Positions 56,152 to 62,461 of a stretch of DNA of 64,000 bases are shown one piece after another; positions within the stretch are counted from its first letter, which is position 1; every line of letters starts with the position of its first letter. Source of the stretch: Pelobacter seleniigenes DSM 18267 (GTDB lineage: Bacteria > Desulfobacterota > Desulfuromonadia > Desulfuromonadales > Geopsychrobacteraceae); the NCBI RefSeq assembly GCF_000711225.1, contig NZ_JOMG01000002.1, positions 570,501 to 634,500 of the forward strand, given 5' to 3'. The translations under genes were made by a program, and so were the position numbers. The notes beneath the pieces were generated by a model. The model was given only the letters and a program-made list of their open reading frames with translations, made no database searches and was not told the origin of the DNA.

Positions 56152-56257
56152 GCCCCGGGACTTGAGCAACAATGCCAACACAGGGCTGACTGCTGGCAGC
56201 CCGCAGCACTGCAAAGGAGGTCATAAACATTAATTAAACCAGCACCAAGCAGACGTC

Positions 56258-56334
56258 CTCCGTAAAGAGTAAACCTGTCGCAAGGCAGGGACACAAAGCC
56301 ACAGGCCCCATATGGGGTGGCTGGGTTGCCGGAG
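56258..56334 (+). promoter_or_regulatory. GEMM-I cyclic-dinucleotide riboswitch, A20 (cGAMP-type) variant
   Basis: P1 arms CTCCG (56258-56262) and CGGAG (56330-56334). Helix CCTGTC-GCAA-GGCAGG carries a GNRA tetraloop, joined by GACACAAAGCC to a second helix ending GGGTTGCCGG. These match the GEMM-I consensus. At the position equal to G20 of the Vc2 aptamer this RNA has A (AAAGAGT aligned with ACAGGGC). A20 variants prefer 3',3'-cGAMP. It sits 34 nt before the OmcS-like gene; CCAAAA/TTTTGG next to the ribosome site may form the switch. Confidence 0.85.
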
Positions 56335-56367
56335 AACCAAAACCATCTTTTGGGAGGATTTCTTAAA

Positions 56368-57525
56368 ATGAAAAAACTGCTTATTGTTTCGACTGCCATA
56401 CTTTTCAGCTTTTGCCTGAGCGGAATCGCCTTTGCCTTCCATGACGGCGGTGTCGCCCATTGTGACGGTTGCCACTCCATGCACAACGGTAGCGGTAACG
56501 GCAACTTTGGAGCAGCTGGCCCGGCCCTGACCAACGGTTCCGATGCCAGCTCCACCTGTCTGAACTGCCATGACGGTTCCGGGCGTTATCATGTTGCCAG
56601 CGCCGACGGCAGCAACACCAACGAAGGCGGCGACTTCAGCTGGGTCAAGGACAATGGTTATACCTATGTTGTCCGTGGCAGCACGAAAACTGATGACTAT
56701 TCAAACCATGGTCACAGCATTGTTGCTGCTGATTACGGCTTTGCGGCTGACGCCAACCTGACCGCAGCTCCGGGAGGTTCCTTCCTGGCTGCCGATCTCG
56801 GCTGCACCAGCTGCCACGATCCCCACGGCCAAGCTCAAGGTGGCGTAACCGCCGGCGCTGCGCCGATCTCCGTATCCGGCTCCTACGGTGCCGTTCCGGT
56901 GGCTGGGACGATCGCCGGTAACTACCGGATTCTCTACGATTCCAACAAAGTCGGCTTCTCTGAAGACGCACCGATCGCCCGCGCCAACAGCTATGACGGC
57001 GCTTCGACCCAGTACGGTTCAGGCATGAGCGGCTGGTGTGCCAACTGCCATGGCAGTTTCTATTCCCAGAGCGCCAGCAGCCATATGCACCCGACTGACG
57101 TTGCCATCCCCGCGACCTACAACCAGTACGTTGCCACCGGCAATTACAACGGCGATGTTTCCACCGCTTACGACCCGTTGGTTCCGTTTGAGCGCGGTGT
57201 GACCACGGCCTCCAGCGACCTGCCGGATCCGACCGATGCAGCAACCGCCGGTGTTGGCGTCGATGGTAACTCCAAAGTGATGTGCCTGAGCTGCCACCGT
57301 GCCCATGCTTCGGCCTTTGGCAACGCCCTGCGCTGGGACCAGACCGAAGCCTTCATCGCTGAAACCTGGATCTCCCTCGGCTCCAATGTTCCGGCTACTG
57401 CCATTGCCTACTATAAGCACGGCGCCAGCGTTGACGTGGCCGATCCCGGCACCGGCAGCCCGTTCACCGATGGTTACGGTGAATACCAGCGCTCCCTGTG
57501 TAACAAGTGTCACGTACAGGACTAA
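56368..57525 (+). CDS. OmcS-like extracellular hexaheme cytochrome 1
   Basis: 385 aa from the ATG at 56368 (GGGAGG upstream). The signal is followed at once by AFHDGGVAHCDGCHSMHNG, the OmcS-type start. Six haem motifs: CDGCH, CLNCH, CTSCH, CANCH, CLSCH and CNKCH, in the order of OmcS. Other shared stretches are GGDFSWVKDNGYTY, ADLGCTSCHDPHG, GMSGWCANCH and CLSCHRAHASAFG. G. sulfurreducens OmcS (about 430 aa, six haems) polymerises into extracellular nanowires. This protein is shorter but keeps the haem spacing style. Filament formation is inferred. Confidence 0.9.
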   Translation: MKKLLIVSTAILFSFCLSGIAFAFHDGGVAHCDGCHSMHNGSGNGNFGAAGPALTNGSDASSTCLNCHDGSGRYHVASADGSNTNEGGDFSWVKDNGYTYVVRGSTKTDDYSNHGHSIVAADYGFAADANLTAAPGGSFLAADLGCTSCHDPHGQAQGGVTAGAAPISVSGSYGAVPVAGTIAGNYRILYDSNKVGFSEDAPIARANSYDGASTQYGSGMSGWCANCHGSFYSQSASSHMHPTDVAIPATYNQYVATGNYNGDVSTAYDPLVPFERGVTTASSDLPDPTDAATAGVGVDGNSKVMCLSCHRAHASAFGNALRWDQTEAFIAETWISLGSNVPATAIAYYKHGASVDVADPGTGSPFTDGYGEYQRSLCNKCHVQD

Positions 57526-57579: not shown

Positions 57580-57613
57580 GGGCCGGCGGAAATGTTGCCG
57601 CCGGCCCTTTTTT
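57580..57613 (+). terminator. Rho-independent terminator between the two OmcS-like genes
   Basis: GGGCCGGCGG (57580-57589) pairs perfectly with CCGCCGGCCC (57598-57607), followed by six T. It would make the first OmcS-like transcript more abundant than the downstream genes. Confidence 0.9.
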
Positions 57614-57675: not shown

Positions 57676-58854
57676 ATGACAGCAGGATCACGTTTCATAG
57701 TCATAGGAATGATATTCAACCTGTCATTCTGTTTTGTACCGGCCGCATTTTCAGCCTTTCATTCCGGCGGTGTCGGCTCCTGTCAGGGTTGCCATAGCGG
57801 CGGACACGGCAGCGAGAACGGCATGCAAAGCTCAACAGCCTCAGCCTCGCCGTTGCTCAAAGCTTCAGATCCCAGCTCCATTTGTCTGAATTGCCATGCC
57901 GGTCCTGGCGGAGCGACCTCCCCTTCAGTTTTCAGCTTTGACGGTTCGGCCCTGACCCCGGGAGGCGATTTCTACTGGTTGACCAAAACTTTTACCTGGA
58001 ACGGCGGGGAAAGCCCGGCCGCAAGCCATGGTCACAATGTCGTTGCCCGGGATTTCGGTTTAGAAGCCGATCCACTGCGAACCCTGGCGCCTGGCGGCAC
58101 ATACCCCTCCAGCGCACTTGGTTGTACCAGCTGCCACGATCCTCACGGTCGCAGCAGCAAAGGAACGGCGCAAGGAGGGCTGCCGCTGGCAGGTTCCGGT
58201 TCCTATGGCGAAACCCCGGCACCAGGGACCGAACAGGGGAGCTATCGCATGCTCGGGGGAGCAGGCTATGTCAGTAACGGTTTCAGCTTCACCAATCCGG
58301 CACCGGTGGCCCGCCAGAATCCGGCGTTGCCCTTTGCAGAAAGCGATACCTCGCATGTCGATTATGGCAGTGGCATGAGCGCATGGTGCGGCAATTGTCA
58401 TAACGGAATTCTCAACAGTTCACATAAAGCGGGGGGAGGATTCGAGCATCCGGTTGACGAACCCTTGGGAACAGAGCTGTCCGGCAGCTACAACAGCTAT
58501 CTCAGCAGCGGGAACCTGAACGGTATCAACCCTACTGCTTTTCTTCAATTTGTTCCCTTTGAACGCGGTGCCAACGATCCCCAGCTGCTCGATCCAACCA
58601 GCACCAATGGACCAGAAGCAACCGCGGTTGTGACCTGTCTGACCTGCCATCGAGCTCACGCAACGGCTTTTCCAGCTGCGGGTCGCTGGGATTTCGACGC
58701 ACCGCTGCTGGTTGATTCCCACCCGGCAGTGGGAGACAGCGGCGTCTCCGGAAATGATGTCAATAACAGTTACTACGGACGCGACATCACGACTGAATTT
58801 GGGGCAGCGCAAGGACAGTTCTGTGAGAAGTGCCATAGCAGCGGAACTCCTTAG
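57676..58854 (+). CDS. OmcS-like extracellular hexaheme cytochrome 2
   Basis: 392 aa from the ATG at 57676 (GAGG 6 nt upstream). The mature start is AFHSGGVGSCQGCHSGGHGS. Six motifs: CQGCH, CLNCH, CTSCH, CGNCH, CLTCH and CEKCH. Shared landmarks are GGDFYWLTKTFTWNGGESPA, GHNVVARDFGLEADP and LAPGGTYPSSALGCTSCHDP, closer to classical OmcS wording than copy 1 in places. The arrangement recalls the omcS/omcT pair. It may be a minor filament subunit or an adaptor to the conduit. Confidence 0.9.
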   Translation: MTAGSRFIVIGMIFNLSFCFVPAAFSAFHSGGVGSCQGCHSGGHGSENGMQSSTASASPLLKASDPSSICLNCHAGPGGATSPSVFSFDGSALTPGGDFYWLTKTFTWNGGESPAASHGHNVVARDFGLEADPLRTLAPGGTYPSSALGCTSCHDPHGRSSKGTAQGGLPLAGSGSYGETPAPGTEQGSYRMLGGAGYVSNGFSFTNPAPVARQNPALPFAESDTSHVDYGSGMSAWCGNCHNGILNSSHKAGGGFEHPVDEPLGTELSGSYNSYLSSGNLNGINPTAFLQFVPFERGANDPQLLDPTSTNGPEATAVVTCLTCHRAHATAFPAAGRWDFDAPLLVDSHPAVGDSGVSGNDVNNSYYGRDITTEFGAAQGQFCEKCHSSGTP

Positions 58855-60322: not shown

Positions 60323-62461
60323 ATGCTGCGGAGCTTTCGGCTGGTCATGGCACTGTGCCCTTTGCTTGGTGCAATCCTGTTGACGCCCGGCGATCTGCAT
60401 GCAGATGACATCAGGCTGCTGGGTGACTGGAGCTACATCCTGTCCAGAATCGATATAAAGGAACGGGATAGCGGCAACAAAACCGAAAACGATAGCGACC
60501 TCTTTAAGCAGAACTATCGCCTGGACATCAGCAAGGAAATTTTCCCGACCCTGACCCTTGACGGAGGCGGACAGGTGGAAAACAGCAAGCAAAGCGTATC
60601 AACAGATCAGTTCGATACAGATACCCGCACGACGACTGTCATGCCGTACCTGGATGGCGAATTACAGACCCCGCTCTATTCGCTCATTGGCGGTTATCGG
60701 GAACGGAATGTCCGGCGCTCGGGAAGCGAATTCAGCGGTGCGGAATACGACTATTTAACCTCCTACAACCTGCGCGCCGAGTGGCGGCCCGTAGATTTTC
60801 CGCGCCTCGAACTGAATTATATCAATACGCACCGTTTCGACGAACCACGAACCAAGGATCGGGAAAGCGACATTTTTCAATTGATCAGCCGCTACGACTA
60901 TCAGGATTACGAATTCCAGTATAACTATCTGCGCACCAATGAGCAGGACAACGAGGAGAACACCAGCACACTGATCAACACCCATAATGGCCGGGTCAGA
61001 TATTACCACAGCTATCTGGATGGCCGCGTCACCCTGAGTTCAAGAGTGCGCGGGGAATACACCGACCAGACCTTTTCCGGAGATGGCGACCGTGATTTTC
61101 CCGTGTTCCCCTCGGGAAACAGTTTTTATTTCATTGATGACGACTCGCTGCCGGGCAATAACAATCCGGCGGTCGATTATACCGATTCCGCTGACTTCGG
61201 CAGCAATCTGAATCTGAACGCCAACGATATCCTCGACATCGGCCTGGGTTTCGGGGAGGCCGTCACGGTGGACATGCTGCAGCTGGCCCTCACCGCTGAG
61301 TTGGACAGCCATTCGAATATCAGCAATCTCGGCAACTGGGCGGTCTATGTCAGTGACGATCAGGAGTCCTGGCAAACCAGAACAGTGACGGCGGTTGACT
61401 ACCAGCAGGACGAAAACCTCCTGGAGATCAGGTTCACCCCGAGCGCCGCCCATGAATTCGTGATGCTGGTTTACACCCCGCCGCTGAATCCCAACCAGAT
61501 CGGTCCGGTCGAGGTCACTTCGATACGAGCCTTCGTCACCCGCAATCTGCGCGATGGTTCGGTCCTGACCAGCCGGGTTCATAACGGGCAACTGGGAGTC
61601 AGCTGGAAAATGTCGGAAAAAACCAGTCTCATTTATGACCTGAATTTCCAGGAACGAAAGTCAAGCCTGGACGATGATCAACGCATCCGCCTGAATAACG
61701 GAATAAACATCATCCACCTGTTCAATGAAATTTTTACCGGAACGGGCCGGTTCTCTATCGCAGAGACCTGGGAGCAGGGGGATCATAAGACCAGGAATTA
61801 CAGCTACAGTGCAAAAATGACCGCACGTTACCTGGAAACCCTCAATCAGTCCCTTATCTACAGCGGGACCTATGATCAGGAAAAACAGAAGGGCGACAGC
61901 ATCACCAATTCGGTCGTTTTACGGACCAATGCAGAACTCTATCCAGGTTGGGATACCTCTTTCGACCAGGGGTTCAGCTGGCAAAACCCGTCTTCCGGCC
62001 CGGAAAACTCCAACATTTTCATAAGGCTGCAGAACAGCCTGGTGCCTCACCGCCGCTTTAACCTGCTGGCCGACTATTCCATTCAGTGGAGTAAAAATCA
62101 GGGCGAAGACTACTCACGCAGCGAAACCGGGCGGCTCCGGGCGCTCTGGATCCCGAGTGACACCCTGAGCCTGAGTGGCGAAATCAAGCTGCGGGGCAGC
62201 GGCGCGGACAAGGATATTTTTTGGGAATACGGGGTCAGTTGGCTGCCGTTAAGAGACGGCACCCTGCAATGCAACATCAGTTTCGGCGAGGAAGAAGACC
62301 GGGATGGCAATCGGACCCGGACCTTATCCCCCAACCTGAGCTGGGATATCACCGATTCCGCCACCCTGATCGTGCGCTATTCCCAAGGATATGAAGAATC
62401 CAACAATGCTACGGAAAATTTCCAGACGGCACAGATAAACCTGAGAATTAACTATGACTGA
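60323..62461 (+). CDS. Outer-membrane beta-barrel with discoidin-like insert (candidate conduit porin)
   Basis: 712 aa; the signal is LVMALCPLLGAILLTPGDLH. Most of the protein is made of alternating, aromatic-rich strands in the style of an MtrB/PioB-size barrel (for example SRYDYQDYEFQYNYLRTN and STLINTHNGRVRYYHSYLDG). Residues about 256-406 interrupt the barrel with a galactose-binding/discoidin-like unit (GNWAVYVSDDQESWQTRTV). No CxxC motif is present at the N-terminus. With the 12-haem protein it could form a porin-cytochrome conduit. Homology to known conduit porins cannot be shown by eye. Confidence 0.75.
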   Translation: MLRSFRLVMALCPLLGAILLTPGDLHADDIRLLGDWSYILSRIDIKERDSGNKTENDSDLFKQNYRLDISKEIFPTLTLDGGGQVENSKQSVSTDQFDTDTRTTTVMPYLDGELQTPLYSLIGGYRERNVRRSGSEFSGAEYDYLTSYNLRAEWRPVDFPRLELNYINTHRFDEPRTKDRESDIFQLISRYDYQDYEFQYNYLRTNEQDNEENTSTLINTHNGRVRYYHSYLDGRVTLSSRVRGEYTDQTFSGDGDRDFPVFPSGNSFYFIDDDSLPGNNNPAVDYTDSADFGSNLNLNANDILDIGLGFGEAVTVDMLQLALTAELDSHSNISNLGNWAVYVSDDQESWQTRTVTAVDYQQDENLLEIRFTPSAAHEFVMLVYTPPLNPNQIGPVEVTSIRAFVTRNLRDGSVLTSRVHNGQLGVSWKMSEKTSLIYDLNFQERKSSLDDDQRIRLNNGINIIHLFNEIFTGTGRFSIAETWEQGDHKTRNYSYSAKMTARYLETLNQSLIYSGTYDQEKQKGDSITNSVVLRTNAELYPGWDTSFDQGFSWQNPSSGPENSNIFIRLQNSLVPHRRFNLLADYSIQWSKNQGEDYSRSETGRLRALWIPSDTLSLSGEIKLRGSGADKDIFWEYGVSWLPLRDGTLQCNISFGEEEDRDGNRTRTLSPNLSWDITDSATLIVRYSQGYEESNNATENFQTAQINLRINYD

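Follow-up and report, generated by a model that had tools for sequence, protein, structure and literature searches.

Does a GEMM-I riboswitch govern the OmcS-type nanowire cytochrome of Pelobacter seleniigenes, and, if so, through which cyclic dinucleotide and at which step of expression? We analysed a 64,000-nt stretch of the DSM 18267 genome (hereafter the window), in which a sequence-only reading had placed a cGAMP-type riboswitch directly before an OmcS-like gene. In Geobacter, the control of omcS by a GEMM riboswitch and cGAMP has already been published, and the window switch is a further member. Our analysis indicates, with a probability that we put at roughly 70%, that a GEMM-I riboswitch turns on translation of the OmcS-type nanowire cytochrome as cyclic dinucleotide rises.

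We compared the window with every Rfam family and placed the pocket bases in Vc2 numbering:

56259-56334, + strand: GEMM-I (c-di-GMP-I/cGAMP class) riboswitch aptamer (RF03167, 61.2 bits, E 5.3e-12)
56268, + strand: A20, the ligand-selecting position, by model-based alignment
56295, + strand: A47, the base stacked between the two ligand bases (role from PMC9049102), by model-based alignment
56329, + strand: C92, the second base-reading position, Watson-Crick to the ligand G, by model-based alignment

The GEMM-I core is intact, as had been claimed: P1 (CUCCG/CGGAG, 56258-56262 with 56330-56334), P2 with its GNRA-type GCAA loop, and the GACACAAAGCC joint are all found, and Rfam agrees. The interval singled out by the sequence-only reading begins about 1 nt 5' of the modelled aptamer and ends at the gene stop, 57525; the A that it had put at the ligand-selecting position is A56268, and the covariance-model check that it had proposed, with the parent family RF01051, gave 65.3 bits at the same site in a whole-genome search, against a curated cut-off of 35. 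The base of P2 consists of G21-C46 and U22-A45 in the model-based alignment. No second GEMM aptamer was returned for the window by the all-family scan. The one other RNA to pass in that scan is an FMN riboswitch elsewhere in the window (30826-30680, - strand, 123 bits). RF03167, the highest-scoring Rfam model in the scan, carries the name c-di-GMP-I-GGC, in which we take GGC to stand for pocket bases 20, 47 and 92, in keeping with the model consensus. The window aptamer has A20, A47 and C92 where this model has G20, G47 and C92; filing it under that family, despite the top score, was therefore rejected, and, judged by its pocket bases, the label is misleading here.

The gene downstream opens a cytochrome cluster:

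56368-57525, + strand: OmcS-like hexahaem c-type cytochrome, 385 aa, with six CXXCH motifs and a PDB match to OmcS
57580-57613, + strand: strong intrinsic terminator 3' of the omcS-like gene, a stem with 10 GC pairs followed by TTTTTT
57676-58854, + strand: second OmcS-like hexahaem cytochrome, in an omcT/oscC-like position, 43% identical to the first
60323-62461, + strand: outer-membrane protein-like gene of the cluster, with a weak Pfam OEP match

The aptamer ends 33 nt before the ATG at 56368. That the target is OmcS-like is borne out by its six CXXCH motifs, by OmcS (6ef8/6nef, E 2.7e-56) being its sole PDB match at E < 0.001, and by 12 histidines that are invariant in an alignment of the window protein with OmcS and seven orthologues, H39 corresponding to mature H16. 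Mature His16 of OmcS serves the haem of the next subunit. The window protein is about 42% identical to the OmcS nanowire cytochrome (6EF8/6NEF) and differs from it in having shorter loops; it is predicted to form filaments as well. The second OmcS-like gene has no aptamer of its own in the Rfam scan of the window, and is followed by a beta-propeller-like protein, the outer-membrane protein-like gene and lipoprotein-like genes, so that in its makeup the cluster is similar to the Geobacter osc (omcS companion) operon, as cited in PMC13194489. With the terminator at 57580-57613 standing between this cytochrome gene and those after it, the first gene may be the chief target of the switch, and the arrangement suggests that its product outnumbers those of the downstream cluster.

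The claim that a riboswitch controls the OmcS-like gene stood as regards aptamer and target, but the expression platform was absent from that account. It involves the following elements:

56255-56261, + strand: GUCCUCC, a double-duty (anti-Shine-Dalgarno) strand, paired with 56353-56359 in the ligand-free minimum free energy (MFE) fold
56330-56334, + strand: CGGAG, the 3' strand of P1, which rivals the Shine-Dalgarno sequence for 56258-56262 (sequence and forced-P1 fold)
56346-56350, + strand: UCUUU, OFF-fold partner of AAAGA 56264-56268, which includes A20 (MFE fold)
56352-56358, + strand: GGGAGGA, the Shine-Dalgarno sequence, 9 nt 5' of the ATG

In the ligand-free MFE fold of 56250-56370, the whole GUCCUCC strand is paired to GGAGGAU (56353-56359), and the 3' part of the same strand doubles as the 5' strand of P1. 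This fold has a z-score of -4.24, none of 200 shuffles being as good, and the OFF state lies 5.2 kcal/mol below the ON state without ligand (ensemble energy, with P1 and the base of P2 forced). When the RNA is folded at growing lengths, P1 has a probability of 0.90-0.96 until the Shine-Dalgarno sequence emerges and 0 from then on; in these modelled folds P1 forms first and is displaced once that sequence appears. Because P1 and the Shine-Dalgarno sequence compete, a ligand that holds P1 would free the latter, and we infer an ON switch acting at translation. The platform, which is new here, is probably translational, with the P1 5' strand pairing either to its P1 partner or to the Shine-Dalgarno sequence.

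Upstream of the aptamer, at 56213-56223, the window also contains a perfect extended Shine-Dalgarno sequence, AAAGGAGGU, a site that usually has G/C and A next; no ATG, GTG or TTG follows closely after it in the window. The same sequence occurs in other aptamer-bearing leaders (L053, L161, L054/L083, L176, L103 and L147) and in leaders without an aptamer (L059, L082, L110, L117, L130 and L153), some 80-240 nt before omcS-like ATGs and far more commonly than its density in the DNA examined predicts. It is possibly an mRNA-stabilising ribosome site.

We built a model from 13 aptamers and searched 78 named OmcS loci with it. It gave 20 strong matches in 19 of them, each followed on its own strand, 17-38 nt further on, by an OmcS-like ATG. 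The window, the genomes G054, G115 and G097, and four loci that represent other families of the class bring the set to 28 leaders, drawn from Desulfuromonadales, Desulfobulbaceae, other Desulfobacterota-type MAGs, Nitrospira, other Nitrospirota, and MAGs that carry a Myxococcota or Proteobacteria label. Within the window's own family and order, the OmcS homologues that are more distant have no aptamer. Across the 28 leaders the P1 5' strand is AUCCUCC or a near variant, and the seven pairs between it and the Shine-Dalgarno sequence are each kept in 26-28 leaders, with pairing-preserving changes to G-U in the window, C-G in Malonomonas and U-A in one leader; covariation is limited because the Shine-Dalgarno core hardly varies. 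The probability of this pairing is at least 0.9 in 24 of the 28 leader folds (it is weaker in L142, L145, L139 and L135), with a mean of 0.92 as against 0.27 with shuffled 5' strands. The U-rich extension of the OFF helix, of the AAAGA/UCUUU type, is a local feature of the window, Malonomonas and G054 and is not general. Two OmcS orthologues about 81% identical to that of the window, at L160 (in genome G114) and L082, have a leader without an aptamer; unlike L160, the sister genomes of G114's genus (G054 and G115) do carry it.

The genome itself (a 5.09 Mb assembly in 6 contigs, of a family that includes Malonomonas) holds 11 GEMM-I matches to RF01051, 10 of them over the cut-off. Written as positions 20/47/92, the pocket is GAC at L001, L002, L003 and L005 (the second aptamer in the L003 stretch), and AAC at the window, L004, L007, L008, L009 (the second in the L008 stretch) and L010. 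Within this genome, only L008-L010 have the AUACU core with C21-G46 of GSU1761. The tandem aptamers L008/L009 lie before the gene of a small cytochrome, rich in proline, that brings PgcA to mind, and the single aptamer L010 lies before that of a multihaem cytochrome; going by their sequences, these are the clearest cGAMP-type switches of the genome. The 5' strands of L001-L005 and L007 have no complement to the Shine-Dalgarno sequence.

The sequence-only reading had also proposed a genome search for a Hypr cGAMP synthase, and had named the absence of one beforehand as counting against it. Of 41 matches to PF00990 (GGDEF) in the genome, 40 exceeded the cut-off, and their number suggests abundant c-di-GMP. 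The base-selecting residue is Asp in diguanylate cyclases and Ser in Hypr enzymes (PMC6456294), and two Hypr-type GGDEF genes were found, so that absence is ruled out. The first is

G000:C1:41364-42758, - strand: P0003, a GacA-like REC-GGDEF Hypr protein (Ser and GGDEF)

P0003 has S352 at selectivity position 348 in addition to GGDEF, and its best PDB match is GmGacA (6d9m), Ser on Ser; it shares the REC domain, the middle region, the GGDEF domain and the selectivity Ser with the Hypr GGDEF protein GacA (GSU1658/Gmet_1914). The second, L050, is a HAMP-type-looking protein with Ser and GGDDY, like GSU1937 (Ser with GGDDF), which has been shown to contribute cGAMP. Both are putative synthases. 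Deletion of gacA lowers omcST expression in G. sulfurreducens (PMC6456294). The idea that the Hypr gene tracks the state of the pocket was rejected, as Ser-type GacA orthologues occur in genomes with A20 and in genomes with G20 omcS switches; hence the presence of the gene alone does not predict position 20.

As to the platform, the GEMM-Ib switches of Geobacter, that of pgcA among them, end transcription prematurely, a mechanism published for GSU1761, and terminator-like hairpins do lie downstream of other GEMM aptamers of this genome (L001-L005 and L007). However, the 33 nt between the window aptamer and the ATG contain no terminator, on which ground such a platform was rejected for the window switch, and the helix that competes for the Shine-Dalgarno sequence is conserved in the 28 leaders; we hold termination to be very improbable here. 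Even less credit can be given to the view that the aptamer is a decaying relic, or that the pairing is a chance product of a CU-rich P1. Any CCUCC strand can pair with GGAGG, and the shuffled 5' strands still pair to some extent, but pairs 5-7, which lie outside the GGAG core, are kept in 26-28 of the 28 leaders, GGAGGAU is present in 23 of the 28 against few other start sites in the DNA examined, and AUCCUCC does not occur in the genome's other GEMM aptamers.

The ligand is the other matter on which explanations differ. The description of the window switch as cGAMP-type was partly right: A20, the mark of GEMM-Ib, is present (A56268), and so are Hypr GGDEF genes, but the C21-G46 pair is absent and A20 alone seems to confer mixed specificity. 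The GEMM-Ib riboswitch of GSU1761 (pgcA; PDB 4YAZ), whose published contact list (A11 A12 U13 A14 C15) fits the position mapping used, shares the GEMM-I fold, A20 and a downstream cytochrome gene, but it has the AUACU core with C21-G46 and a terminator platform, whereas the window has G21-C46, U22-A45 and a platform that sequesters the Shine-Dalgarno sequence. Changes in lower P2 are reported to affect selectivity, and we read C21-G46 as the mark of the cGAMP-selective type; with a G21-C46 pocket, unlike that of GSU1761, c-di-GMP may be an equal or even the main ligand. The statement that A20 shifts preference to cGAMP likewise needs qualification, since the natural A20 aptamer of Desulfobacca, on a canonical scaffold, acquired affinity for cGAMP while that for c-di-GMP hardly fell (PMC9481103). 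The omcST GEMM-I riboswitch of G. sulfurreducens, which belongs to another family than the window organism and Malonomonas, also has its aptamer before omcS (we compared it by its published description), and is reported to be sensitive to both cGAMP and c-di-GMP in the passage of PMC6456294 that cites Kellenberger 2015. As these two RNAs are reported to respond to both ligands, we expect the window switch to be cGAMP-capable and probably dual. The same two cases, the canonical G21-C46 scaffold and the many GGDEF genes could equally be cited for a switch that is mainly a c-di-GMP sensor, in which A20 merely weakens selectivity and cGAMP carries little weight in the cell. That the genome has genes for cGAMP signalling is shown by its two GGDEF genes of Hypr type and by its three GEMM-Ib aptamers like that of GSU1761, and G20/C92 is replaced in all five omcS switches found in the window's order; both points speak against such a sensor, which we regard as possible though unlikely.

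The translational ON switch that we favour would then operate as follows. Without ligand, GUCCUCC (56255-56261) would pair with the Shine-Dalgarno GGAGGAU and AAAGA, including A20, with UCUUU, so that ribosomes could not load. cGAMP, presumably supplied by the GacA-like Hypr GGDEF protein and probably also by the GSU1937-like one, would be favoured by A20 and bind, while a response to c-di-GMP probably remains. The bound ligand would keep P1 closed, and the Shine-Dalgarno sequence would be freed.

Among the 28 leaders the pocket code is GAC in 15, AAC in seven, CAC in two and GAU in four. When AAC is mapped on a tree of 27 of these cytochromes, five changes at the fewest are needed and shuffled labels do as well (255/500), which implies that position 20 flips freely. 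The window's clade (support 100/99) has only AAC (2) and GAU (3), and its nearest neighbours are GAC; the closest aptamer-bearing OmcS orthologue (82% identical) has G20, so A20 is not conserved with the gene. The five switches found in the window's order are all A20/C92 or G20/U92, each one step from the G20/C92 of a c-di-GMP sensor. Each pocket position reads one ligand base, and the published double change G20A/C92U leads to c-di-AMP recognition; by this logic, AAC and GAU should both favour a mixed G/A dinucleotide, and GAU may bind cGAMP. We suggest, tentatively and with more doubt than confidence, that a single translational GEMM-I switch is common to OmcS-type nanowire genes of several phyla and that its ligand has shifted in evolution through changes of one base, with two routes to cGAMP in the window's order, A20/C92 (the window and Malonomonas) and G20/U92 (G054, G115 and G097).

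Natural G20/U92 GEMM-I aptamers were seen at L237 (G115), L235 (G054), L225 (G097) and L135, that of L237 being at another gene with no cytochrome adjoining. C20 aptamers occur at L176, L181, L233 and L234, the last two preceding sensor-like membrane proteins.

Neither for the broad distribution, nor for a platform acting at translation, nor for the two-route pocket series was a description found in the literature searched, a body to which the primary 2015 papers do not belong. If our reading is right, cyclic-dinucleotide control of OmcS-type wires would be recurrent, phylum-spanning and translational, and no peculiarity of Geobacter. Translational control might also be the reason that, of the Geobacter regulon, omcST showed the smallest effect at transcript level. 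Should the two-route reading be true, the G20/U92 pocket would recognise cGAMP by way of position 92. If our reading is right, ligand choice could be predicted from bases 20 and 92, and these leaders would lend themselves, as a natural series, to tests of how a riboswitch moves from one signal to another.
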